Shown here in pieces: positions 1,789 to 62,504 of a stretch of DNA of 64,000 nt. Each line of letters opens with the position of its first letter. Within the stretch, counting starts at the first letter, position 1. This DNA is from a virus: positions 1 to 64,000 of the IMG/VR virus record IMGVR_UViG_3300042197_004553; one strand, written 5' to 3'. The notes below the pieces were generated by a model. It saw only the letters and a list, made by a program, of their open reading frames with translations, was not told the origin of the DNA and searched no databases. The position numbers and the translations under genes are program-made.

Positions 1789-2597
1789 CGTTATTGTTGC
1801 GAATTAGCCGTTTCCGCTAATTCTCCTACACTTTCATGCAGGACCAGACTATGTCATCTTGTAGCGCCGCACGTTGCAACGGTTACACAAACCTTTTGCC
1901 GCATGTGGTGACGTCGTTAAGCCGCAGGAAATACACGCGGTGTATCGCGTGCGCCACCGACCCGACTTTAATAATTTTGGTGTGGCGTATTTTGCTGTGC
2001 GGGCTGCTTGCATTTCTGTTTTGTGCTCTAACAAATGACAGCGTCTGCAAACAGTTTCAAGATTGTCTAAAGCGTTGTTCGGGTTTTTATTTCCGCGCCC
2101 TAAACGATCTTTGTGGTGTACGACCAGTTTTTTCGTTTTGCCGCAACGAGAACACTGTTGTTCGTCACGGGCAAGTACCGCTGTGCGTTTACCGTCAAAA
2201 TGCCGCCGTTCGCGGTTAATTTTGTATTGCGGTAAAATTTCAGCGCGATATTGTTCGTACCATTGTTTTTTGGCGTTCGCTATTCTTTGACGATTTTTGT
2301 CGTCATTGCGGTAGCGATCCAAATAACAGACTTTGCACAGTCCTTTTGCCATATGTAGCCGATCAGTTCGACCACATGATTGGCAGCAAGGATACTTTTT
2401 TGACCACATCTCAAAACTCTGCTACAAGGCCCCCATTTCGAACCCACTTGGGTCCTACGATCTTTCGATCTAGTCGTTGAACCTTCCAAGTATATGGCTA
2501 CTTGGCTTGGCTGCAAGTTGCCCGGCTTACGCTGAGGGGTTTCTTGCAATTAAAGGGCTTTTCACTGATTTGTCGCCAAATCAGGGGACTGAATTCA
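1789..2597 (-). ncRNA. Group I intron (809 nt) inside the AAA+ ATPase gene
   Basis: The intron interrupts the Walker B codons between GAT (Asp) and GAA (Glu). Canonical elements are visible on the minus strand. P1 is formed by exon GGAU and intron UG pairing with CAGUCC, with the expected U-G wobble exactly at the 5' splice site (after 2598). The P and Q strands share a complementary GCAAG/CUUGC (about 2534-2551 and 2504-2523). R is GTTCAACGACTAGA at 2469-2482. S is AAGATGACATAGTC at 1847-1860, where TAGTC pairs with GACTA of R to make P7. A P9-type hairpin (GAATTAGC/GCTAATTC) lies at 1801-1823, and the intron ends in G at 1789. The HNH reading frame fills the P8 region. Excision restores an uninterrupted frame. 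Confidence 0.9.
1849..2409 (-). CDS. Intron-encoded HNH homing endonuclease
   Basis: The 186-aa protein has an HNH core near residues 86-128: CSRC, then VVHHKD, then NNALDNLETVCRRCHLLEH, giving the His-Asn-His metal site plus structural Cys pairs. It is flanked by two related zinc-finger modules, residues 9-34 (CQSCG...AKGLCKVC...RYR) and about 158-183 (CISCG...AAKGLCNRC...RRYK), which look like an internal duplication and probably bind DNA. It would cut intron-less alleles of the AAA gene to spread the intron. Its stop codon TAG lies within the P7/S strand of the intron, so the end of the protein and the ribozyme core share sequence. No strong SD is seen. The base composition is more AT-rich than the neighbours. 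Confidence 0.93.
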   Translation of the reverse strand: MWSKKYPCCQSCGRTDRLHMAKGLCKVCYLDRYRNDDKNRQRIANAKKQWYEQYRAEILPQYKINRERRHFDGKRTAVLARDEQQCSRCGKTKKLVVHHKDRLGRGNKNPNNALDNLETVCRRCHLLEHKTEMQAARTAKYATPKLLKSGRWRTRYTACISCGLTTSPHAAKGLCNRCNVRRYKMT

Positions 2598-3545
2598 ATC
2601 CACAAAGAGCACACACGGAGCCATGGCGTCAATCTGCTTGAGCGCGCGTCGCATGTTGCCCTCGGACTCGCCGACGAACTTACCCATCAGACTGCCGAAG
2701 TCGAGCATGACCGTGGGCCGGCCGACCTCGTTGCCCAGCGCCTTGGCGAACTGGGACTTGCCGCAGCCCGGAGGCGACAGCAGAAGCACGCCCTTGGGTC
2801 GCTTGTCCACGTTCTTTTCGCCCTGCCGACGCATGGCGCGCAGGCAGAATTGCTTGAGGTTCTCAAGACCGCCAAGGTGCTTGAAATCTGCATCGCCGCG
2901 GTAGAGCGACAGCGTGCCGCTTTTTTCCAGCGTCTGAGCCTTGATGCCCCAGATCGTGTCGGCTTCCAACTTGTTGTTGCGGACCAAGGACAGCGCGAAC
3001 GCGTTCTCGGCCTCCTGCCGGGTCAGACCGCGGGCGGCTTCGACGACGCTGGTGACTTGGTCGTCGGTTGGCTTTTCAAACGCCGAGCCCTCGCCGAACA
3101 GGTCGTTGCAGATCGACTTGAGTTGCTCCTCGTCGGGCAACTCGTGATGAACGACGGTGAAGAGTTTTTCGACCTCGGGCTGGAGCGCCACCGTCGGCGA
3201 AATGACAACAAAATACTTGCCTTCACCTTTGCCCTGCACGACGCGGTTGGCCAGCGCTTGCACGACCTCGGGGTTGGGCAGATAGCGATGGAAATTCTTG
3301 AGCACGAGAATCTGCGTCTCGTGCGTCTTGGGCGCGTTATCCAGCGCCCGGATGGCCTGCAGCGGTCCCGGCGCCGGCGTGCCGCTGTACATCTGGCGGT
3401 CGATGTCCCAGACGTCGCAGCCCCACTTGCGCTCCTCGGCCAACTTGCGCAACGTATCCACCGCGTCGTCGCACTCCAGCGACTCGATCCAAATACCAGA
3501 AAAGCCCGCACAGACCAGTTCTTCGATTTCTTTCTTGAGCGACAT
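2598..3545 (-). CDS. Ycf46-like AAA+ ATPase, exon 1 (N-terminal part)
   Basis: Exon 1 codes for residues 1-316, with ATG at 3545. The N-terminal domain (MSLKKEIEELVCAGFSGIWIES...) matches the Ycf46 type that precedes the AAA module. Walker A is SPPGCGKS at 257-264, where Ser replaces the usual first Gly. The strand before it reads KGVLLLS, and the exon ends in CVLFVD, the first half of Walker B. Unspliced, translation would meet TGA one codon later, leaving an ATPase without its catalytic Glu, sensor 1 or arginine finger. It sits 2 nt from the DUF2997 gene and just beyond the DUF1257 gene, the same neighbourhood as in cellular genomes. The protein's target is unknown. Confidence 0.92.
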
Positions 3546-5823: not shown

Positions 5824-6318
5824 TTATTCGCTTTTCTTTTCAAGAATGGCTTTGCGCAGTTTTTCGAGTTGATCCGCTGCGTTGCTGTCTCGAAAATCGA
5901 CGGCGTACACGCCCTCGGCTACGGGCTCGATCGCAATCTCTGTGTTGGATTGCGCGCTTGTCGGTTGCGTGGCGATCGGCGGTGCGGAGCACCCGGGCCC
6001 CCGCAGCCACGCGTCGTTCAAGTGCGGCCACTTTTCGAGCGAGTGGATGGCGCCAAGCAAGTTCCACGCAGCGTGCGCCAAGTGTTCTTCGCTGCGGTCG
6101 CCGCCTAAGAAGTTGTAGATATGCGTGATTGCGTGATTCAAAAGATCAGCAACCGGCATTCCTTGCTCCCAATTGAAGTAGCCAAATTTTTCTGCGCCCT
6201 CGGCATACGTTTGCGCCAGCGCGCGCAAACCAATTGGCGAGATCAGGTCGTAGCGGGCTGTCTCGCAATCGGCACTGCGGACGGCTCCGGTATCGTATTC
6301 ACGGCGTTCCTGCGTCAT
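5824..6318 (-). CDS. DUF5664 / MazG-like dNTP pyrophosphohydrolase
   Basis: The N-terminal 100 residues match the phage dATP/dGTP diphosphohydrolase-type domain (DUF5664): CETARYDLISPIGLRALAQTYAEGAEKFGYFNWEQG, then LLNHAITHIYNFLGGDRSEEHLAHAAWNLLGAIHSLEKW. The Glu in YAEGAEKFG and the E/H/D residues of the second block are the expected metal-binding positions. It would hydrolyse selected deoxynucleoside triphosphates in the cytoplasm, adjusting nucleotide pools during replication. The last 65 residues are unrelated and poorly conserved in character. ATG at 6318 overlaps the preceding gene by 20 nt. Confidence 0.86.
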   Translation of the reverse strand: MTQERREYDTGAVRSADCETARYDLISPIGLRALAQTYAEGAEKFGYFNWEQGMPVADLLNHAITHIYNFLGGDRSEEHLAHAAWNLLGAIHSLEKWPHLNDAWLRGPGCSAPPIATQPTSAQSNTEIAIEPVAEGVYAVDFRDSNAADQLEKLRKAILEKKSE

Positions 6319-6610
6319 GTTTTTCTTCCGGCTGAAAAGCGAAATAGAGTCGCGGCGAGTCGATAAAAGCCACGGTGCCGCGTTGGCCGTTTGCTTTCTT
6401 GATTACGTGCACACACGGCGGGTCGAAGTGCGAAACCTCAAACTGGTCAAGGAGTTCGTCGTTGGTCCAGACAGGGTCGTGCAAGCGTTCTAGCGCCGTT
6501 TTGGCCTCGGCTTGCCCCATGTGCGAGTACTGAGCCGCCAGCATTTTGATCACGCTGTTTTGCGTGGCGCGGACGGTCACGTCTGTCAGCGTAGCGTCGG
6601 TGTTACCCAT
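6299..6610 (-). CDS. Hypothetical protein (103 aa)
   Basis: The start at 6610 (MGNTDATLTDVTVRATQNSVIKML) overlaps the end of the upstream gene by 8 nt (ATGGGTAA), which supports coupling and argues against the longer upstream frame. The protein has an N-terminal helix and a C-terminal beta segment (HVIKKANGQRGTVAFIDSPRLYFAFQPEEKHD). No known domain is recognised. Confidence 0.78.
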   Translation of the reverse strand: MGNTDATLTDVTVRATQNSVIKMLAAQYSHMGQAEAKTALERLHDPVWTNDELLDQFEVSHFDPPCVHVIKKANGQRGTVAFIDSPRLYFAFQPEEKHDAGTP

Positions 6611-7010
6611 TCGGAGTGTTGGTGTCGATTTGTTGTTTAATGGTGTCAAGTTGCGCCGAGTAATCTTTGATCTGCTCGGCAAGTTGTGCCGCATAGTTGT
6701 CGAATACACGAATTTGCGCAACGAGGTCGCGCTGCAGTTCGACGTTGAACGCCGCCAACCGACTCAGCAACCGCAGTACGCTGGCCATATAGGGCGCTTG
6801 AGGGTCGCGCAGCCGCAGCAGTCCCGGCGGCGTGCCTTCTGGATTGTGGTTCCAAATTGGCACGATTGCGAGGCCGTGCAGTTCGGGGATCAGTTCGAGT
6901 GTTTTGACACAAAAATCTTCTGCGAGCCGATAGAGTTCGGCGTCACACGGCAGGCGCTCGGAGGCGATTGCTGGAGTTGTGTCATTGGGATTGGTTGTCG
7001 GCGTGTCCAT
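6603..7010 (-). CDS. Hypothetical helical protein (135 aa)
   Basis: The start at 7010 (MDTPTTNPNDTTPA) is supported by GGAGAC 5 nt upstream. After a disordered Thr/Pro-rich leader, the protein is largely alpha-helical, with a long C-terminal coiled-coil-like segment (about residues 85-130). It is flanked by the DUF1360-like membrane protein gene and a small hypothetical gene, and overlaps both. The function is unknown. Confidence 0.78.
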   Translation of the reverse strand: MDTPTTNPNDTTPAIASERLPCDAELYRLAEDFCVKTLELIPELHGLAIVPIWNHNPEGTPPGLLRLRDPQAPYMASVLRLLSRLAAFNVELQRDLVAQIRVFDNYAAQLAEQIKDYSAQLDTIKQQIDTNTPNG

Positions 7011-11070: not shown

Positions 11071-11141
11071 AGCCCCCAGAAGGAGTCAAACCCTCATCCG
11101 CTGATTACAAATCAGCCGCATTATCATTATGCTATGGGGGC
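11071..11141 (-). tRNA. tRNA-Thr (anticodon TGT)
   Basis: The minus strand folds into a full cloverleaf. A 7-bp acceptor stem pairs GCCCCCA with TGGGGGC, the D arm is GCAT/ATGC, and the anticodon stem is GCTGA/TCAGC with loop TTTGTAA (anticodon TGT, reading ACA). The T arm is GAGGG/CCTTC with loop TTTGACT, slightly unlike the usual TTCRANY. CCA is not encoded. It would supplement decoding of ACA, a codon less favoured in GC-rich hosts. It lies between two protein genes with short gaps, so it is probably processed from a longer transcript. Confidence 0.92.
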
Positions 11142-51546: not shown

Positions 51547-54500
51547 TCAGACCACTAAGTGCAGTTCGATGTTGTTCAGCGGCGCCGGAACAACAAGGTC
51601 CAACACGATTTCGACTCGGTCACGGAGAAGCGGATGCACGTTCAGTTTCCGGATTTCTCCCGAGATCAGTTGCGAGCCCAATTCCAGCGTGTTGCCGTTG
51701 TTGATCAAGAAGTAGATGATCGACTCAATCTCGAACCGCAGGCGACGGATCATGCCAGCTTGCACGTTGGTCCGGCCGATGTACGGCTTCAGCCGCCGCA
51801 GGAACAAGTACGACATGCTGTCCACGTTCCGGCGGATCATCTCTTCCCGACGATTCAGGTCGAGGTTGTCCGTCGTGAGCGCGTGCCGCGTGTGCGGGGT
51901 GCCGTCGCGGTCTTCCGTGACGATCCACACGCCGGCTTCCGCCATACGATTTAACTGCGTTTCGTTGAAGTACTTGTACGACCGACTGTAGTCGTCGAAA
52001 CCGGCAACTTCAACATTTGTCAGCGGCTGGTGCGGCACCACGCCCGACACAAGCCCGGCAAGCGCCGCCGCCAGATAGTAGCCCGGCTGCAGTGTGCCAG
52101 CCTCGCCCACCTGATCGGGCCACACGCCCACCACGCGCCGATTCGACAGCGAACCGGCCTGCTGCGCAATGTCCTCGGCAACTTCGTTGCGATTCCGGTT
52201 GTGCCAGATTTCAAACCGCTGCGCCTGCGTCACGGCCGCGTCGGCGCCCGTGTACAGAAGCAGCGAATTCTCCGACAGCACCTGATCCACAACGTATTCG
52301 TCGTACTGCTCCTCGCCGAGCGAGTCGACGACGAAGTTGTACCGGACGATATCGCCGGGTTGCACGTTATTGGCAATAAAGTACCCGCTCGAACCCGTCG
52401 GGACCTGCAACCGGGTGTACTGGTTGCCCGTCGCGTTCGGGTCGTCGCCGAGCGTCGCCAGCGTGTCATTTTCAATGACATTGCCGGACACGCCAGCAAT
52501 CGGCGCGCCCTGGCCAACCACCAGTTGCTTGGGCTCTGCCTTGAGGGCGAAGAACCCGGCCTTCCAGTTGTTGGCGATCTCGTTCGATTCGCCGGTGATG
52601 TGCGCAGCCCAGAGATTCTGAACCGAGCGATCAAACGTCAACGGAACGAGGTTATACAGATCGTCGCGACCCTTGAGGCGCTCCAGCACCTCGCCCCAAC
52701 TGTCGAGATCAGGGCCGGTTTCGCGATAATTCTCGGCATGGTATTCAACCGGATGCGCCACGGCGGTGTACTTCACCACGGTGCCGTTGCTGTTAGAGAG
52801 CGCCTTGTACACGCCCCACTTCAGCGGATTATCCGGATGCAACTGGCCCGCAATGTCGTCCAGATCGGCCACCGTGCTAATCGAATTGACCTCATCGGCC
52901 AAATCGGCCAGAAATTCACGATACTCGACGTAGAGGGCGCCAGCGGTGACCGGCAGCGGTTGTTCTACGCCGTCCTCGGTCCACTCGGGGTGGTACGCCG
53001 TGATGCCTTCCTGCACGCAGATTTGCGTGTCCTCGAACCAGTAGTTCGTCAGGTTCGGGGCTTCGGGCCGCGTGCGCGACACCTGAATATCGTCCTTGAT
53101 GAACAACTGCAGGTCTAACGACGTAGCTGCCGCCAGTTCCGACGACAGGTCATCGCGCAGGATTAACTTGCGCACCGGGCCGGCCACACTGGACACCACC
53201 GCGACGTAGAACTTGTCGCCCTTGCGCAGGCCGACGTTTCCAATAGATGCCGTCGCCGTTGCCCCCGTGCCGCCACCGCCCGAAAACGACACCGTCGGAG
53301 CCGACAGGTAGCCGCTGCCCGGGTTAGTGAGCGTGATCGCCGTAACCGCGCCAGAGGCGACCGTGGCCGTCGCCGTCGCCTGGGTGCCGCCAGCCGGCGG
53401 CGCCGACAAGGTTACTGTCGGAGGCGTCGTGTACCCCGTACCGCCGGCGTCCACGGCGACCGACGCCACGGGCGAAACAACCGACAGTTTAACTTTGACA
53501 CCGTTCGTGCCGATTCCGATCGACCCGCCGTTTTGCGTCACTTCCGTCGGGCCAGAGAAATCAAGGCCCTTCACCGTCCGCACGGTGACCTCGGGATAGC
53601 CGTTCGCCGCGGCCGAAATCGCGTCAAACCGGCCACCCTTAGTGACCTCGACAATGTACACGTCATTTTTGCTGCCGGCATACCGGGCAAGAATGTCGCC
53701 GGCGGAGTTGGTGGAGTACGGCGTTGCCGCATCGGAAGCGGCGGTCGCAACGCGAAACGCCTGCCGAACCGACACCACCCACTTCTGCCCGGTCACAAAC
53801 ACGTCCGCCGCCACGCCGTTGTCGTCCGCAGCGTCTTCGCACGCGGTGGTAGACAAAACGTTAAATTTGACGCGCAGCCCGCGTGTGCCAATATTTGTAA
53901 ACTCGTCCATATCCGACGGCACAACGTCATCGACGTCGTCCCGGCCACTCGCGCTCCGGACGCGCAGCCGCGCGGCGGCGCACCCCGATACGCTGCTCTT
54001 CACGACCTGAATCGTGTACTCTTCAGCGACATCGCCGCTGGCCAGCCCGTTGTACAACGAACCGTCCACCGTGGTGAGTTTGACGCAGTTTTCCTTGCCG
54101 GCCACCTGCAGGTAATTGTTGTCGCTGCTCGGGCTGCTGGCGGAGGCGGTGACGGTCGACTGGTTGTTGGCGTCGGCCGAGGCCGGCTTGATCAGCGAGT
54201 TGACGGCATCGCTGGCGAACCCAGTGACTTCCGTCCACAGCGTCTTCTCGTCGCAGGTGTCATTCGTGTTCACGACTGTTCGAACGTAGACCACGTCGCC
54301 CACCTTCACGTCGCGGTCGTTGAACGCGCTGCTCCGAGGATACGCCGACGTGTTGGATTTGAACGAGAGGTTATTCGACTGAATCCAGTTCGACTTGCCG
54401 CTGACGGCGGTGATTGTCGTGGCGGTGTCTTGCAGGTCGTGGTCAAAGTACTTGAGGAGCGCGTTGTCCACGTACAGCTTGCCGTACGACAGGTCAACCA

Positions 54501-54714
54501 CGGACCCGGCCTTCCGGCCCGGCCACGGGTAGCACACGTCGGTCAGCGGATCGTACGCGCCAAGCCCGCTGGCCTGTTTTTCGTCGCGGTCGCTGTAGCG
54601 GTGGAGCACAGCATGCGGACCAGCAACGTGCGCGCGGAGCGGTTCAGTAATCTCCGTCGGGACGATGCTGAACTCTTGGAATACCAGAACCTGTGGCTTA
54701 ATGTAACTCGACAT
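51547..54714 (-). CDS. Tail sheath protein with inserted domains (1055 aa)
   Basis: The C-terminal 130 residues (RREEMIRRNVDSMSYLFLRRLKPYIGRTNVQAGMIRRLRFEIESIIYFLINNG...LNVHPLLRDRVEIVLDLVVPAPLNNIELHLVV) are the conserved sheath core that mediates contraction. The N-terminus (MSSYIKPQVLVFQEFSIVPTEIT) fits too. The protein is longer than most sheaths: residues about 155-540 are beta-rich inserted domains, including a GSGY repeat pair (VDAGGTGYTTPPTVTLSAPPAG and TNPGSGYLSAPTVSFSGGG) likely exposed on the tail. GGAGG lies 8 nt upstream. Confidence 0.93.
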   Translation of the reverse strand: MSSYIKPQVLVFQEFSIVPTEITEPLRAHVAGPHAVLHRYSDRDEKQASGLGAYDPLTDVCYPWPGRKAGSVVDLSYGKLYVDNALLKYFDHDLQDTATTITAVSGKSNWIQSNNLSFKSNTSAYPRSSAFNDRDVKVGDVVYVRTVVNTNDTCDEKTLWTEVTGFASDAVNSLIKPASADANNQSTVTASASSPSSDNNYLQVAGKENCVKLTTVDGSLYNGLASGDVAEEYTIQVVKSSVSGCAAARLRVRSASGRDDVDDVVPSDMDEFTNIGTRGLRVKFNVLSTTACEDAADDNGVAADVFVTGQKWVVSVRQAFRVATAASDAATPYSTNSAGDILARYAGSKNDVYIVEVTKGGRFDAISAAANGYPEVTVRTVKGLDFSGPTEVTQNGGSIGIGTNGVKVKLSVVSPVASVAVDAGGTGYTTPPTVTLSAPPAGGTQATATATVASGAVTAITLTNPGSGYLSAPTVSFSGGGGTGATATASIGNVGLRKGDKFYVAVVSSVAGPVRKLILRDDLSSELAAATSLDLQLFIKDDIQVSRTRPEAPNLTNYWFEDTQICVQEGITAYHPEWTEDGVEQPLPVTAGALYVEYREFLADLADEVNSISTVADLDDIAGQLHPDNPLKWGVYKALSNSNGTVVKYTAVAHPVEYHAENYRETGPDLDSWGEVLERLKGRDDLYNLVPLTFDRSVQNLWAAHITGESNEIANNWKAGFFALKAEPKQLVVGQGAPIAGVSGNVIENDTLATLGDDPNATGNQYTRLQVPTGSSGYFIANNVQPGDIVRYNFVVDSLGEEQYDEYVVDQVLSENSLLLYTGADAAVTQAQRFEIWHNRNRNEVAEDIAQQAGSLSNRRVVGVWPDQVGEAGTLQPGYYLAAALAGLVSGVVPHQPLTNVEVAGFDDYSRSYKYFNETQLNRMAEAGVWIVTEDRDGTPHTRHALTTDNLDLNRREEMIRRNVDSMSYLFLRRLKPYIGRTNVQAGMIRRLRFEIESIIYFLINNGNTLELGSQLISGEIRKLNVHPLLRDRVEIVLDLVVPAPLNNIELHLVV

Positions 54715-55526: not shown

Positions 55527-55633
55527 GGCGTCCCCTGCGGTTTTTTATAGAGGCTGATGGTAGGAATCAGTTTAATTTTGTCGAGACGCAGTGTTACAGG
55601 CGGTGGCGCGGCGGGCGTGACTTTTTGGCTCAT
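55523..55633 (-). CDS. Mini-gene (36 aa) between neck genes
   Basis: ATG at 55633 begins MSQKVTPAAPPPVTLRLDKIK and ends LYKKPQGTP. It overlaps the upstream stop and the downstream start by ATGA at both ends, which strongly supports a translated gene. Pro-rich and basic, it is possibly a small structural peptide. The function is unknown. Confidence 0.72.
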   Translation of the reverse strand: MSQKVTPAAPPPVTLRLDKIKLIPTISLYKKPQGTP

Positions 55634-56874
55634 ATATCCCAAAATCCGTTGTCGTTAGCGGGTTTCACAATGCGCCCAGGCGGTTTGGCCGGCGGCCGAG
55701 CCGGTCCCCCCGCAAACACGACCGGCAGCGGCGCTTCGGGGGCGGTGACTGTCAACGCCCGAATATCTGGCCCAAACTCGCCCGGCTTTTCGTACAGAAT
55801 AACGTACTGCCCAGCATCCAGGCGAACAGATTGCGTCCATCGACCATTGACCCGAGTCGTCGTCTTCCCGACAGCCAAGTTGCGGTTGATCGGTAGGCCG
55901 TGTGCATCAAAATGCGCTTTGGTAAAGATGTAAATATCGGCGCCGGTGATCGGACAGCCGTCGGCCTGCGTATAAATAAGGTTGTCGGCGCCGCCATAAT
56001 CCTGATCGACCACGACGGCCCCGCACCCGACGATTGGCAGTGTCGGGCCTTGTCGCGCCGGGGGTTCACCGCCGATTTCTAGCGCGTAGATCGGATTACT
56101 GAACGGCAACAAGCCCATTTTGACTTGGTAAACCACCGGGACGTTGCGGACTGCGGCCAGCACCTGAATGGTTTCGACCAGCCAGCGCTCGTCCGAGGCG
56201 CCGTTAATCCAAACGTCGCCTTTGTTCAACGCCGGAAACCCGATAACGCGCGCATTCACGTAGGCGTTTTCCCGGGTGGCGCCTTTTACATTGTTGTCAA
56301 TATCTTCTTGAATCAATTGCGGCGACAGGTCCCAACACTGCATGGGCAGGGTCGGGTGGAAGCCGATTTCAAAACCGGTACCGCTGCACACCGGGCAATA
56401 CGAGTCGGTCACCTCTTGGGTGAGCCCGTCGCGGCAGCGTTTGCAGGGTACGCCGTAGCGGAGCGGCTTGGCCAGATACCCGGGCGCCGAAACCAGCCGG
56501 TGCCTCAACTTTTCTTTGCGGATGATCTCGCGCACCAGCAGCCAGTCTCGCTCCGGAAGTTCACCGAAACAGTTGGCGGCCTGCGAAACATAGGTGCCGA
56601 CCGGCGTGGTGAGTTTCACGCGGTAGTGCGTCAGAATATCGTACCCGCCTTCGCGCCACGCGGGGTCGGCGGCAAAGTACGTGTTGGTGACCGGCGACCC
56701 GACGTTTTCCCAGTCAAACGAGTCGCGGACGCCAGAGCGCCCGAACTGCAGTTGAAAGGTGTAGGGCCCGGGGTCGTTAAATAGCCGCTCTAACTGCCAC
56801 CACACGCGGGTTACGCCGCGTACCATGTGGTCAACAGATACCCGGCGGAACGGGAAAATGCGAGATTGGCTCAT
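55630..56874 (-). CDS. Virion/neck protein with zinc-binding insert (414 aa)
   Basis: MSQSRIFPFRRVSVDHMVRGVTRVWWQLERLFNDPGPYTFQLQFGRSGVRDSFDWENVG... carries an Ig-like/beta front. A CKRC...CPVC zinc-knuckle is at about 140-165 (CKRCRDGLTQEVTDSYCPVCSGTGFE), and a second beta domain follows. It is likely a head-to-tail joining or tail-completion protein from location. Transcription probably restarts here, since a strong terminator lies just upstream and TATACT at 56882-56887 ends 7 nt before the ATG without any SD. Confidence 0.8.
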   Translation of the reverse strand: MSQSRIFPFRRVSVDHMVRGVTRVWWQLERLFNDPGPYTFQLQFGRSGVRDSFDWENVGSPVTNTYFAADPAWREGGYDILTHYRVKLTTPVGTYVSQAANCFGELPERDWLLVREIIRKEKLRHRLVSAPGYLAKPLRYGVPCKRCRDGLTQEVTDSYCPVCSGTGFEIGFHPTLPMQCWDLSPQLIQEDIDNNVKGATRENAYVNARVIGFPALNKGDVWINGASDERWLVETIQVLAAVRNVPVVYQVKMGLLPFSNPIYALEIGGEPPARQGPTLPIVGCGAVVVDQDYGGADNLIYTQADGCPITGADIYIFTKAHFDAHGLPINRNLAVGKTTTRVNGRWTQSVRLDAGQYVILYEKPGEFGPDIRALTVTAPEAPLPVVFAGGPARPPAKPPGRIVKPANDNGFWDI

Positions 56875-56881
56875 AAACCAA

Positions 56882-56887
56882 AGTATA
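56882..56887 (-). promoter_or_regulatory. Candidate promoter (TATACT) for the neck/tail operon, possibly leaderless
   Basis: AGGTATACT lies between the terminator at 56904-56948 and the ATG at 56874. Initiation at the usual spacing would begin the mRNA at or next to the ATG. Confidence 0.4.
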
Positions 56888-56903
56888 CCTGACCGCTGAT
56901 AGC

Positions 56904-56948
56904 TAAAAAAAAGGCCGGGGAGAGTTCATGACTCTCTCCCCGGCCTTT
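56904..56948 (-). terminator. Strong rho-independent terminator ending the structured RNA region
   Basis: GGCCGGGGAG pairs with CTCCCCGGCC (10 bp, plus AGT/ACT above a small bulge), followed on the minus strand by eight U residues (56905-56912). It is the most convincing leftward terminator in the window and marks the 3' end of the RNA made from 57.5 kb. Confidence 0.93.
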
Positions 56949-57550
56949 CCCCCAATCACCACCTTGCGGTGGGCACACTGATTCAGGGCTCGTTGTTCTC
57001 CGGTCGAGGCGGCTACACCCACGCCAACAAACGCGATGTTTGGCGGCTGCTTTTGGCAGGAATGGGGCACAACGAGAAAGCGTACCTGTGTGGGGTATGA
57101 AACTCCCGCGTTTTGCGACCAGCGCTTAACGCAAAAGTCACACAGGCGTGACAGTAGTTTTAATGGCGCCAAAGTTTACGACGGACAGGGCCCCACACCC
57201 GACTTGGCTGTCCTTCTACAACTCTGGTCTCACACTGCAAGATAACTACCTGAACCGGCGTTTCACTGGCTGGCGCATATAGGGCCAACCGGACGTCCCA
57301 GAAAGTAGTCAGAGCCCACTAACGGTGGTGTTACCAAATCACCGCGAGGCTGGCGTAACTGACAAAGTCACACCTTTGTGTCCAAGGGCTCTTCCTCGAA
57401 AGCCTTGATTCTGTTCGAACTGCCGCGCCTTTGCGACAATTCGCCGGGAATGCTGACAGAACCGACAGCGTTCCCGGCGTGGCTCCTTCGAGAACCACTC
57501 GTATAAATTAAACCTAGTTAGGGAAACGGCATACGTAGCCTCCTTTCTGG
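56905..57550 (-). ncRNA. Large structured noncoding RNA candidate (about 640 nt)
   Basis: No plausible gene fills this interval. The minus strand folds locally into many hairpins read directly from sequence: 57479-57498 (7 bp); 57442-57479 (14 positions, one mismatch, 10-nt loop); 57421-57438; 57383-57407; 57361-57382; 57268-57290 (7 bp); 57183-57213; and 57137-57152 (5 bp). A terminator with eight U closes the 3' end. The length and density of stems recall giant phage RNAs such as GOLLD and ROOL, though I cannot match a consensus. The 5' end is uncertain; TATACG at 57500-57505 might be a -10 box. It lies between the VWA gene and the neck genes. Confidence 0.62.
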
Positions 57551-57555
57551 CGCCA

Positions 57556-58983
57556 TTACGTAGCGAGGGCGATCTTGAAACCTTTCAGCATGGTCGGCAG
57601 ATTGGTACATCCTTGGACCATGCTGAGTTTTGACAACAATTCCGGGTTCCAATCCGGAATCATGCCCGATTCGACCGTCTCTGGCACCGCGTACTTTCCC
57701 GAAAAGTAGTTGTGCAGCCAGATCGCGCGGGTCACGCTTTTCAGTCCAATCACCTTGCGGTATTGCTCCGTGGCGTCGTGGTCGCCGATGAAGACGACAA
57801 CACGAACCCTATAACAACTCTGTCCGCCACAGACCTGATCGAACAGGCGTTCCACCTGTCCGGGGTCTGTGGCCACTGGCTTTCCGTTAAACCACGGGAT
57901 GTAGTTCTCCGTCGAGTCCACCTCGCCGTTGCTGTGGGGAAACACCAGCACGTCGGAGCCAGAAACTCCGGCGTAGCCCGCCGCGTTAGCAAGATCGCAG
58001 GCTATCTGGGCCTGCGCCTCGCAACTCGGCGATACGTCGGGAAGAAACAGCACGCACGGGCGGCCCGTCATACTGTCTTCCTTGAGAGCGTTGGGCAGCG
58101 GCCGGCGGACAACCATTCGCTGCACCAACTTTCGGGCGCTCAACACGGGGATTGGCGCAAAGTTTTCACCCGCGCTGCCTCCCCGGTCGACGAGCCGATT
58201 AATCAGGTCGGCCACCTGTTGTCGCAGTTTTGGCGGAACCCGTTGCAGCCGCCCATGGGCTCCTGCAATCGTTTTCCGCGCCACAAGAGACGGCGCCGAC
58301 GCCTGCGCCACGCGGTTGTGCGACGCTTTCCGCCGGGCCATCTGGAGATTCCGTTTTGCCGCACTAACCGAAGCACTGCCGGAGGACTGAGGGGCTTGTT
58401 TGGCGCGGGCAAGGGCGTCGCGATACGCCTGTTGCGCGGCCTTAAGCGCCTGCTGCTCGGGACTTGGCTGTGGTTTAGGGGGAACGGGTTGTGGCTGGTT
58501 CGTCTCCTGCCCAGACGCAGGACCGGTCGTCTGCGTTTGGGTCGGCTGCGCGTCGTCCGGCGACTGGGGCTGCGACCCCTGTTGCTGGCCGGCGGGCTGT
58601 GACGAATTGTTACTACTGCCGCCCGGCTGCTGTTGCTGCTGGGACTGGCCCTGACCGCTCCCGCCGCCACCGGAATTCGGCTGTTGCCGTTGCCGATTTT
58701 GTCGTTCGCGGTCCCAATTGATCGCCGACGTGACGGGCACATCAGGCCCGTACCGTCGCGCCCACGTGTCGACTCTGGACTGCACGTCGACGACGCGGCC
58801 GGTGGTAGCCTCGATGTTACCGCGTTTCACCGCGGCCCGCTCGATCGCGTATTCCGGCTCGTTCGCGACATGGCAGGCGACTTTGCTTAGCGTCTTAGGA
58901 TACGCGGAGCCGCCGAAACTCTCGCCGCAATTGCGGCGCGAGACGCTAAGCATTTTCTGCAGTTCTCGCACCGTAAGGGCCAC
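57556..58983 (-). CDS. VWA-domain protein, CobT-like partner of the MoxR ATPase (475 aa)
   Basis: A C-terminal von Willebrand A domain is indicated by the MIDAS motif DVSPS at residues 316-320 (D-x-S-x-S) after the strand CVLFLP. The N-terminal 90 residues are globular, followed by a long Gln/Pro/Ser/Gly-rich linker (about 91-180) and a basic helical segment. The combination with the adjacent AAA+ protein matches the MoxR/VWA (CobS/CobT-like) chaperone pairs, in which the VWA protein brings substrate to the ATPase. In phages the target is unknown. Here the pair is among the structural genes, so a capsid or neck assembly role is plausible. Confidence 0.85.
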   Translation of the reverse strand: MALTVRELQKMLSVSRRNCGESFGGSAYPKTLSKVACHVANEPEYAIERAAVKRGNIEATTGRVVDVQSRVDTWARRYGPDVPVTSAINWDRERQNRQRQQPNSGGGGSGQGQSQQQQQPGGSSNNSSQPAGQQQGSQPQSPDDAQPTQTQTTGPASGQETNQPQPVPPKPQPSPEQQALKAAQQAYRDALARAKQAPQSSGSASVSAAKRNLQMARRKASHNRVAQASAPSLVARKTIAGAHGRLQRVPPKLRQQVADLINRLVDRGGSAGENFAPIPVLSARKLVQRMVVRRPLPNALKEDSMTGRPCVLFLPDVSPSCEAQAQIACDLANAAGYAGVSGSDVLVFPHSNGEVDSTENYIPWFNGKPVATDPGQVERLFDQVCGGQSCYRVRVVVFIGDHDATEQYRKVIGLKSVTRAIWLHNYFSGKYAVPETVESGMIPDWNPELLSKLSMVQGCTNLPTMLKGFKIALAT

Positions 58984-58999: not shown

Positions 59000-59827
59000 C
59001 TAGTGTTTCCGCTTAAACTCGCCGTACAGCACGGCGCCGGGAGAAGAAATCTCCCGCTCGATCGCTCGGCGGTCCTTCTCGTCCTTGACGAGGAAGGCGT
59101 CGATCAGCGACTCAGTGTCCTCGACTGAGGTCACCAAATCGCGCGCATGCAGGAGTTCGCGCAACTCCTGCAGGCTGGGCTTGCTTTCGCCCTTGGTGCG
59201 GACGGCGTTGGCCATCTTCACCGCGAGCCGGCACGCGCCGCCGGGCGCGCCCGTGTTCTTGCGGAGCACGTCCACCTCGACGTTCTCCGGCAAGAACTCC
59301 ATCGTCACACGAAAGCAGCGGCGCTTTACTGCCTCCGGGATGTCGCCCTCCTCGTTTGCCGTGAGGACAACAAACATCCGCTTGAGGTCCGCTTGATGCA
59401 TGTGGTGCCGCGCATCAGGCACCCGGCCATGCTGGAGAAAGTCCAGAATGAGCGGGTAGAACCGGCTGCCGGCCTTTTCCACCTCGTCCAGCGTCACGAC
59501 GACGTCGTGGTGCTTTGTAGCTTTGACAGCCCGAAGCAACTGTCCGTCCATGTACGCCTCGTCGGCGTGAGTAACGCCGACCGCGACCTTGCCGATGTCC
59601 ACACCCTGATTGACCTCCTCATTGGTCAACCACGGGTGGCAGGGGATGAAGAACTGCTTTGCACCCCTGCCGCGGGCGAAACAGTCGGCAAAGAATGTCT
59701 TGCCCGTGCCGGGCGAGCCGACCAGCAAAACCGCCCGCATCGTCGCCGTGATCAGCGACAGCCAGCGGGCCGCCAGCGACTCACCGCGGCGAGCGTAGTA
59801 ATCGGGCAGCAATGTGTTCGTCGACAT
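59000..59827 (-). CDS. MoxR/CobS-like AAA+ ATPase (275 aa)
   Basis: Walker A GSPGTGKT lies at 37-44, Walker B VVTLDEVE at 109-116, sensor 1 VLTANEEGDI at about 154-163, and the arginine finger AVKRRCFRV at about 166-174. The single AAA module with a short lid is the MoxR/CobS size and layout. Phage homologues are often named cobS, although no cobalamin chemistry is implied. It is followed after 16 nt by the VWA partner gene, forming an operon with two small upstream genes. Confidence 0.93.
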   Translation of the reverse strand: MSTNTLLPDYYARRGESLAARWLSLITATMRAVLLVGSPGTGKTFFADCFARGRGAKQFFIPCHPWLTNEEVNQGVDIGKVAVGVTHADEAYMDGQLLRAVKATKHHDVVVTLDEVEKAGSRFYPLILDFLQHGRVPDARHHMHQADLKRMFVVLTANEEGDIPEAVKRRCFRVTMEFLPENVEVDVLRKNTGAPGGACRLAVKMANAVRTKGESKPSLQELRELLHARDLVTSVEDTESLIDAFLVKDEKDRRAIEREISSPGAVLYGEFKRKH

Positions 59828-60338: not shown

Positions 60339-60566
60339 AAAAACCTCCTTTGCATAAAAGAGCCGGGGCGAAACGCCGCGCCGGCGGGGCCGCACAGATA
60401 AACGGCACCAATGAATATGCCCGTGTTTGCGGCAAAATTTAGACGACAAAACCTTTGCCCAAAAAGTTTTGAGCAGCGGTTTCGTAACACGTGTTCGCGA
60501 ATCGCGAAACGCGAAAGTGTTTGTCGCGTAAAGAGTTACGACGACTGTTCCACGTTCCAGAACGCG
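60339..60566. other. Intergenic gap (228 nt) upstream of the MoxR/VWA operon
   Basis: No gene is supported here. The minus strand shows TTCGCG-type inverted repeats (around 60502-60527, TTCGCGAATCGCGAA) and a GC-rich hairpin near 60364-60380 just before the SD of the mini-gene. It probably holds the terminator of the gene on the right and the promoter of the MoxR/VWA operon, but I cannot assign exact -10/-35 boxes. Confidence 0.5.
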
Positions 60567-61565: not shown

Positions 61566-61586
61566 AAGCGCGGCTCCTTTTTAACC

Positions 61587-61592
61587 AGTATA
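61587..61592 (-). promoter_or_regulatory. Candidate promoter (TATACT) upstream of the neck gene
   Basis: TTGTATACT is 22 nt upstream of ATG 61565 and just downstream of a long hairpin. It is the third structural-gene copy of this motif. The -35 is unclear. Confidence 0.38.
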
Positions 61593-61598
61593 CAAACA

Positions 61599-61631
61599 GA
61601 AAGGGCTGACCGTTAAACGGCCAGCCCTTTC
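61599..61631 (-). terminator. Intercistronic hairpin after the capsid genes
   Basis: GAAAGGGCTG-A-CCG pairs with CGG-C-CAGCCCTTTC with one mismatch and a 5-nt loop. It is symmetric enough to act on either strand; no U-run of four or more follows on the minus strand. It probably limits read-through or stabilises the capsid mRNA. Confidence 0.62.
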
Positions 61632-61655
61632 GCGTTTCAGCACGTCACAGTTGCG

Positions 61656-62078
61656 TCAGGTACCGGCAGGGCCAGTGGCCCCGGTGGCACCCGTGGCGCC
61701 CGTGGCGCCCGTGACACCCGTGGCGCCAGCGCTGACGGCAAAGCCGCCACCGCCCGCACCCTGCCACGACGGATTCGACGTGCCGACTTGGCTCGACGAA
61801 TTCATCGCCAGTTCCTTGGTCACGCTGCCCGTTTCGCTGAGCAGATAGACCGAAGGCGAACGAACAATATCCAACAGATTGTCCGTCAGCGCGCGTTCCA
61901 GCGCCTTGAACTTCCGCTGGCTGCGTTGCGCACCCAGTTTGGTCACAAGGTCGCCCGGAACGGTGTACGTGGCGTTGTCCGCCAGCGTTTTACCGTGCGC
62001 GCCCAGAAATCCAAACGTCATGGTTTTACCCGAGACGTTTTTTACAACAGTGTAAAGATCATCAGAAGTCGTGGGCAT
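61656..62078 (-). CDS. Small head protein with collagen-like tail (140 aa)
   Basis: MPTTSDDLYTVVKNVSGKTMTFGFLGAHGKTLADNATYTVPGDLVTKLGAQRSQRKFKALERALTDNLLDIVRSPSVYLL is a beta/helix domain common in capsid gene clusters (small head or decoration-type). It is followed by a Gly-rich linker and a C-terminal GATGATGATGPAG collagen-like run. The stem suggests it projects as a trimer from the virion surface. Confidence 0.8.
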   Translation of the reverse strand: MPTTSDDLYTVVKNVSGKTMTFGFLGAHGKTLADNATYTVPGDLVTKLGAQRSQRKFKALERALTDNLLDIVRSPSVYLLSETGSVTKELAMNSSSQVGTSNPSWQGAGGGGFAVSAGATGVTGATGATGATGATGPAGT

Positions 62079-62089
62079 ATTTTACTCCG

Positions 62090-62479
62090 TTACTCTGCGG
62101 GTTGCATGGCCGCAGCAGCCGCGGCTTGCAGGGTCAGTACAGCATTCGCAATTTCGGGTTGGTCGGCGGCGAGAGCAGCCACGTGGTTAAACGTGGCCTG
62201 CTTCTCGTTTCCGCCGCCAATCCCTGCAGCCGCGAGCGCCGCATCCAGTTGCTGGTTCACAGCAGCCAGACCCGTATGGCGCGCCGCGGCGGTCTTTTCC
62301 TGTTCCGCCGTATAGAGCACGTGCAACTTCTGCGCAGCAGCCCACATTTCCGCGGCTTCACCTTCGGAACCGGGGACAACCCCCGCTCCAGCCAGTTTTT
62401 CGAAGAAATAGGGGGCGGCCAGTTGCGACACAACGGTGGCGTAAGCCTGTTCTGCCGCTTCTTTAACGGTATCAGCCAT
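62090..62479 (-). CDS. Hypothetical head-region protein (129 aa)
   Basis: MADTVKEAAEQAYATVVSQLAAPYFFEKLAGAGVVPGSEGEAAEMWAAAQKLHVLYTAEQEKTAAARHTGLAAVNQQLDAAL is Ala-rich and helical. It lies 25 nt after the capsid gene and 11 nt before the small head protein. It is probably a minor head or scaffold-related protein by location. No family is recognised. Confidence 0.8.
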   Translation of the reverse strand: MADTVKEAAEQAYATVVSQLAAPYFFEKLAGAGVVPGSEGEAAEMWAAAQKLHVLYTAEQEKTAAARHTGLAAVNQQLDAALAAAGIGGGNEKQATFNHVAALAADQPEIANAVLTLQAAAAAAMQPAE

Positions 62480-62504
62480 TGGTAGTGCTCCTTGTTATTA
62501 CGGC

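Follow-up and report, generated by a model that had tools for sequence, protein, structure and literature searches.

A large structured RNA with a 5' micro-ORF, linked to a MoxR-VWA operon in one clade of myophages

Gene content of the locus

The window, that is, the whole stretch of 64,000 nucleotides that was analysed, belongs to an uncultured virus record of 79,093 bases. On its minus strand, a MoxR-type AAA+ ATPase gene (59000-59827; Pfam AAA_5, 1.6e-13) precedes the gene of a VWA-like protein with a DxSxS motif (57556-58983), which is followed by a structured RNA of 654 nt (56905-57558, from helix P1 to the end of the U-tract; covarying structure in eight distinct phages) and then by a 414-aa gene (55630-56874). 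The RNA is the 3' element of the MoxR-VWA cargo unit, in which a 194-aa gene, the MoxR AAA+ gene, the VWA gene and the RNA lie in this order between a 332-aa gene and the 414-aa one.

Between the VWA-like and the 414-aa genes, no supportable protein gene was found on the minus strand, in agreement with the preliminary description, which had presented positions 56905-57550 as gene-free and rich in hairpins. The largest minus-strand ORF there (89 aa, 56903-57172) is not conserved, as its matches in the relatives are short and mostly interrupted by stops. A conserved coding frame, named beforehand as the finding that would speak against an RNA, was looked for across the interval and is absent among the relatives; only a micro-ORF of 3-5 codons is kept. 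The region is thus real, but its 5' limit had been set short: the RNA begins at 57558, slightly upstream, where P1 overlaps the VWA stop codon. At the other end, the terminator read earlier as a stem plus eight U holds, being an intrinsic terminator with its U-tract (56905-56945, minus strand), whose stem (56945-56934/56924-56913) covaries.

No Pfam hit was obtained for the VWA protein. Its best viral matches in Foldseek are mostly phage VWFA proteins, and weak (E of 1.9e-3 or worse); the full-length model is poor (pLDDT 57), and the C-terminal model has no significant match in PDB and weak ones to phage VWFA proteins. The putative VWA assignment rests on the DxSxS motif and on these weak fold matches. 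Annotated phage records contained no close relative of MoxR or VWA, no RNA-binding domain was recognised in the MoxR, VWA or 194-aa proteins, and PADLOC assigned no system.

A promoter-like element, CTAAAT..GGCATATT (60414-60442, minus strand), marks the start of the cargo operon; its place is conserved in the relatives, and in some of them a second copy occurs near MoxR. Many relatives have it in front of their cargo site, independently of what is carried there, and it resembles a phage-specific type of promoter. Since no promoter-like element of the types seen at the locus was observed between VWA and the RNA, the RNA probably constitutes the 3' part of the operon or is processed out of that part. 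Another promoter-like element, AGCTATCAGCGGTCAGGTATACT (56882-56904, minus strand), unique in the window, lies after the terminator and before the 414-aa gene, and its position is kept in the RNA-bearing relatives and in several relatives without the RNA. More generally, phages whose cargo differs widely have AGCTATCAGCG with a TATAAT-like box directly behind the cargo terminator; no such element was detected at loci where the 332-aa and 414-aa genes almost adjoin. The intergenic region after the 332-aa gene (60443-60566) contains dense short inverted repeats, for example GTAAGT..ACTTAC and TTCGCAATTCGCGAA, which are shared, in variable number, with L018, L032, L022, L023 and L007.

Several other features of the window were recorded. 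The tail-sheath-like protein (1055 aa, 51547-54714, minus strand) has conserved ends and a middle part, Ig-like or glycine-rich, that is strongly variable among the relatives. A group I intron (1825-2607, minus strand; Rfam, 72.6 bits) contains on the same strand a 186-aa ORF (1849-2409), possibly an intron-encoded endonuclease. The plus-strand ORF at 61788-62315 is probably an artefact; on the minus strand, ORFs of about 134-141 aa fill this stretch, one of them with a collagen-like GATGATGATG tail at its end, and the DNA of the stretch is conserved in the relatives. An apparent second structured region, 61566-62504, proved to be minus-strand coding sequence.

Distribution of the RNA and of the cargo unit

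The search with the 1055-aa sheath-like protein yielded 28 environmental loci on contigs of up to ~205 kb, and searches with MoxR and the 414-aa protein added further relatives. We observed homologues of the RNA at the equivalent locus in seven other distinct phages (L018, L020, L021, L032, L022, L023 and L007), all of them viral metagenome contigs and counted without exact copies; in these, the locus is a gene-free stretch of 570-715 nt. The sample is therefore eight distinct RNA sequences from a single clade. The homologues share the motifs GGRACGUC..GAAACGCC and GGACA(A)AAG, and most of them also UUUCUCGUUGU..ACAACGAGCC. A covariance model of the 3' domain, R1, has a single strong place in each of seven RNA phages (E from 1e-15 to 1e-28). 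In the most divergent homologue, L007, it finds no significant match to the 3' domain, and this RNA was assigned by hand from the core, P1, P2 with the pseudoknot PK, P4 and P10; L023 has no assignable P1, P2 or PK.

The MoxR gene is present in all eight phages with the RNA and in none of the 15 other relatives tested, which also lack the RNA; about a dozen further relatives have no MoxR, VWA or RNA at the locus. The preliminary description had found the place of the RNA beside the MoxR/VWA pair suggestive, and this link is supported, as the RNA and MoxR are present or absent together. On the sheath tree, the joint presence of the RNA and MoxR requires at least two changes, hence gain or loss of the unit as a whole occurred more than once. 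The co-occurrence may, at the same time, reflect mere physical linkage in one cassette.

The cargo site itself is variable: several phages have next to nothing between the 332-aa and 414-aa genes, others carry unrelated small genes there, and MoxR-VWA-RNA occupies the site in eight. The gap at this locus in the relatives without MoxR was considered as a candidate RNA and rejected, since small protein genes are located there. In L014, L025-L028 and L034 the site holds unrelated small genes and no MoxR, which makes it a candidate hot spot for accessory genes. In L020 (at about 6175-6710), a 129-aa ORF is inserted between the RNA terminator and the 414-aa gene; the presence of another gene after the terminator marks the RNA as a unit.

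Outside this group of phages, BLAST of four RNAs of the family (the window, L007, L021 and L022) against phage or plasmid records returned nothing real, and no isolate phage or plasmid record matched. When viral contigs were scanned for the patterns of the 3' domain and of the core motif, only the same contigs and chance coding matches were recovered. The MoxR profile search of viral contigs added one close relative, L046, whose contig ends short of the RNA, and, in other phages that lack a match to the RNA model, distant MoxR genes; in bacterial genomes, the MoxR search gave general AAA+ matches only. The family seems to be confined to one phage clade, the covariance-model test of its spread covering the 3' domain only.

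Conserved secondary structure

Folded as a single sequence, the RNA has a minimum free energy of -276.4 kcal/mol, compared with -231.8 for shuffled sequences (z = -5.9). Among 160 tiles of 600 nt in the window, the tiles over the RNA region rank 8th and 12th, and some coding tiles fold equally well; hence in this genome stability alone is weak evidence.

We therefore turn to the comparison of homologues, in which covariation had been proposed as a check and was found. Fifteen helices could be written for most sequences by alignment and hand inspection, followed by a letter-by-letter check; the helix list was drawn by eye on the same sequences that were tested, which, being related, are not independent of one another. 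The column-shuffle test with RNAalifold does not depend on these hand-made choices: for six sequences, it gave -112.9 versus -28.6 +/- 4.1 for the shuffles (z = -20.7). In alignment A7, which spans P3-P7, 15 pairs are changed on both sides versus 8.6 in shuffles, none of 500 shuffles reaches the score, and sliding the pairing always gives a far lower count than the real one; in alignment A3 (the 3' domain), the counts are 11 versus 5.4, again with 0/500 shuffles. Over the eight sequences, compensatory changes are present in nearly all helices, including P1 and the pseudoknot.

The fold is closed by the long-range helix P1, formed by its 5' strand TAATGGCGCCA (57548-57558), which contains the VWA stop codon, and its 3' strand (57161-57171); all 11 positions of P1 show a compensatory change. 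Hairpin P2 (57443-57478; 57466-57478/57443-57455) has compensatory changes at 13 of 14 positions, and its loop (57462-57456) serves as the 5' strand of PK, pairing with ACAGAAT at 57408-57414; the pseudoknot is fully paired in 7/7 sequences, with compensatory changes at five of the seven positions. Hairpins P3 and P4 follow (57352-57404; P3 from 57404, P4 57374-57366/57360-57352), with the GGACA(A)AAG linker and with their covariation counted in A7; P4, like the terminator stem, shows the paired, compensatory pattern across the relatives. Hairpin P5 (57323-57344) is CGGTG/CACCG in the window, and GGGTG/CACCC is replaced by GGGAC/GTCCC in L023; P5 is poorly aligned in A7. Helices P6 and P7 (57255-57301) form the core, flanking a fixed internal loop GACGU / AAACG: RACGTC and GAAACGCC are kept in 8/8 sequences, and the flanking helices covary. 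Further along the minus strand lie P8 (57227-57220/57176-57169; paired in 6/6 sequences, compensatory at 5/8 positions) with P9 (57213-57208/57188-57183), both within 57169-57227, and P10 (57084-57147; 57147-57139/57092-57084), which encloses a window-specific insertion and is paired in 7/7 sequences with compensatory changes at 7/11 positions. The 3' domain (56950-57076) consists of P11, CUCGUUGU/ACAACGAG, and the hairpins P12 and P13. The self-complementary loops of P12 were considered as kissing loops and rejected, as the palindromes are inconsistent among the sequences.

Four hairpins had been singled out as the clearest in the preliminary description, and all of them can pair. Two are conserved helices, 57442-57455/57466-57479 corresponding to P2 and 57268-57274/57284-57290 to P7. 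Of the other two, 57479-57485/57492-57498 falls in a stretch absent from most relatives, and 57137-57141/57148-57152 competes with the conserved P10 and probably does not belong to the functional fold.

The comparative evidence (RNAalifold z of -20.7 and covariation reached by 0/500 shuffles) is decisive for accepting a functional fold. We conclude, with near certainty, that the minus strand at 57558-56905 encodes a large structured RNA under selection on base pairing in one myophage clade. The rival reading, a degenerate coding region or a fold arisen by chance where GC content is high, might cite the excess of minimum free energy being unexceptional among genome tiles, but is extremely improbable given compensatory changes in nearly all helices, the alignment z-score and the lack of a conserved frame.

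Ribosome-entry element at the 5' end

A feature missed by the preliminary description lies at 57546-57518. The Shine-Dalgarno sequence AAAGGAGG (57539-57546, minus strand), 1 nt 3' of the P1 5' strand, is followed by the micro-ORF ATG CCG TTT CCC TAA (57518-57532, minus strand), encoding MPFP* just inside P1. A Shine-Dalgarno sequence, a start codon and an ORF of 3-5 codons are present in 8/8 RNAs, the peptide being M-x-(F/W)-(P/T)-stop in most: MPFP* in the window, L018, L020 and L022, MNFT* in L021, MFT* in L032, MTWP* in L007 and MHWPR* in L023. By chance, such a pattern appears at 0.0005-0.0075 of shuffled starts, per sequence. In the MPFP group the third positions of the proline codons vary and the peptide is constant, that is, the changes are synonymous. 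We infer from the sequences that the micro-ORF is presumably translated. As P1 in the window holds the VWA stop codon, termination of VWA translation and folding of P1 would momentarily exclude each other.

Comparison with known systems

In Rfam, at the gathering thresholds and at E<=5, the RNA of the window had no match beyond chance ones, most of which involved the terminator hairpin, and the RNAs of the relatives gave none. The search suggested earlier for GOLLD, ROOL, HEARO and OLE in Rfam likewise produced no match, and the covariance models of GOLLD, ROOL and OLE match neither the window RNA nor its relatives. The earlier proposal that a new class of large, structured RNA is present in this phage is supported by the comparative evidence and by the lack of an Rfam match; judged by sequence comparison, the family is one not previously described, without a counterpart in Rfam.

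GOLLD, ROOL and OLE are ornate RNAs of large size and without a known function (PMC12286853). Similarly to GOLLD, the present RNA is a large multi-helix RNA of phages or prophages with no function assigned; however, many GOLLD RNAs exceed 800 nt, versus 654 nt here, and lie near tRNAs, whereas the only tRNA in the window, tRNA-Thr (11071-11141), is 46 kb from the RNA. Unlike GOLLD, the present RNA is tied to MoxR-VWA and carries a micro-ORF. With ROOL it shares a phage origin, large size and a pseudoknot, but there is no sequence or covariance-model similarity, no tRNA island, and a protein operon partner is present. OLE is about 600 nt long and works in a ribonucleoprotein complex, but it comes from Gram-positive bacteria (Bacillota) and shows no similarity. 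By covariance model and context, the RNA is of the same general kind as these three and a member of none of them, and within that kind the micro-ORF and the protein operon set the family apart.

Other candidates were rejected. For HEARO or omega RNA there is no Rfam match, and the neighbouring proteins searched are AAA+, sheath and proteins without assignment, with no IscB/IsrB/TnpB-type nuclease among them. The Rfam model Intron_gpI matches 1825-2607 and not the RNA region; a tmRNA is rejected since neither ARAGORN nor Rfam detects a tRNA-like domain, and the Y RNA / Ro60 system since there is no match to a Y RNA model and no TROVE protein.

Ro60, a TROVE-VWA protein, together with Y RNA is an established pairing of a VWA-containing protein with a structured RNA. 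Here there is no TROVE domain, and the RNA is far larger than Y RNA; the part of PMC7824862 on which we draw notes TROVE in jumbo phages. The same part of that source describes MoxR-vWA pairs of jumbo phages, which resemble the present pair in that the MoxR AAA+ and VWA genes adjoin and the phage is a large myophage, but are described there without a structured RNA.

The micro-ORF, in turn, has a parallel in phage lambda. The bar minigene of lambda is an ORF of a few codons in a phage transcript (works cited in PMC8012679); here the micro-ORF sits in a large conserved RNA fold and has a strong Shine-Dalgarno sequence.

Discussion

The reading that we prefer, tentatively and as one that may well prove wrong, is that the RNA acts in trans with the MoxR-VWA machine after co-transcription and release, while the micro-ORF loads or parks a ribosome. 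The RNA would be transcribed together with the MoxR-VWA operon and freed by termination, perhaps with 5' processing at P1. It would then be a trans-acting partner of the MoxR-VWA machine, as an RNP remodelling factor for infection or virion assembly. A ribosome loaded or parked by the micro-ORF at the RNA 5' end could either keep VWA-terminating ribosomes out of the fold or bring the RNP to ribosomes. For jumbo phages, MoxR-vWA pairs have been proposed as virion-assembly chaperones, according to the part of PMC7824862 considered here. Since the tail genes are kept in phages that lack the cassette, a general role of the RNA in virion assembly across the clade is excluded, and the RNA more likely serves an accessory MoxR-VWA function. 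The proposal of an RNP is weakened by the fact that known MoxR-VWA systems are described without RNA. A stronger version, in which the ~650-nt pseudoknotted RNA is a necessary component of the MoxR-VWA machine, recruits ribosomes and couples translation state, folding and assembly, seems to us rather unlikely.

Several alternatives do without such a partnership. If the RNA formed a homo-oligomer, a cage or scaffold like GOLLD/ROOL, MoxR-VWA would be unneeded and the linkage accidental; its size, many helices, pseudoknot and phage origin do recall these RNAs (PMC12286853), but we consider this somewhat unlikely, given the lack of Rfam similarity, a sole tRNA 46 kb off, the joint presence or absence of the RNA and MoxR, and the fact that no consistent kissing-loop pair was identified. 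Alternatively, the Shine-Dalgarno sequence and the micro-ORF could draw host ribosomes to an RNA that stalls, titrates or tags them, in a lambda-bar-like manner on a structured platform. The micro-ORF with a strong Shine-Dalgarno sequence in 8/8 RNAs, the reported binding of GOLLD to ribosomes in pull-downs (PMC12286853) and the inhibition of translation by phage lambda minigenes, reported in works cited in PMC8012679, are consistent with this. The micro-ORF, however, is a small part of a 654-nt structure, and the P/T before the stop is not invariant (MHWPR in L023), so that targeting of ribosomes as the main role is doubtful.

The RNA could also act in cis, as a leader, trailer or attenuator that controls either how far transcription reads through the terminator into the operon of tail genes or how stable the MoxR-VWA mRNA is. 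A micro-ORF followed by structure and then by a terminator is the layout of an attenuator, and P1 overlaps the VWA stop codon; yet a conserved promoter-like element, which would start transcription anew, stands directly after the terminator even in several phages without the RNA, a conserved body of more than 550 nt separates the micro-ORF from the terminator, and in L020 a gene is inserted between the terminator and the 414-aa gene. On balance, regulation in cis appears improbable.

To our knowledge, few natural RNAs are this large and complex beyond the ribosome, RNase P and self-splicing introns, and we know of no assigned function or identified protein partner for the large phage RNAs GOLLD and ROOL. 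As the present RNA is accompanied by a defined protein operon and has a conserved ribosome-entry element, hypotheses on what large phage RNAs do can be derived from it and tested directly; some MoxR-VWA systems, moreover, may be ribonucleoproteins.
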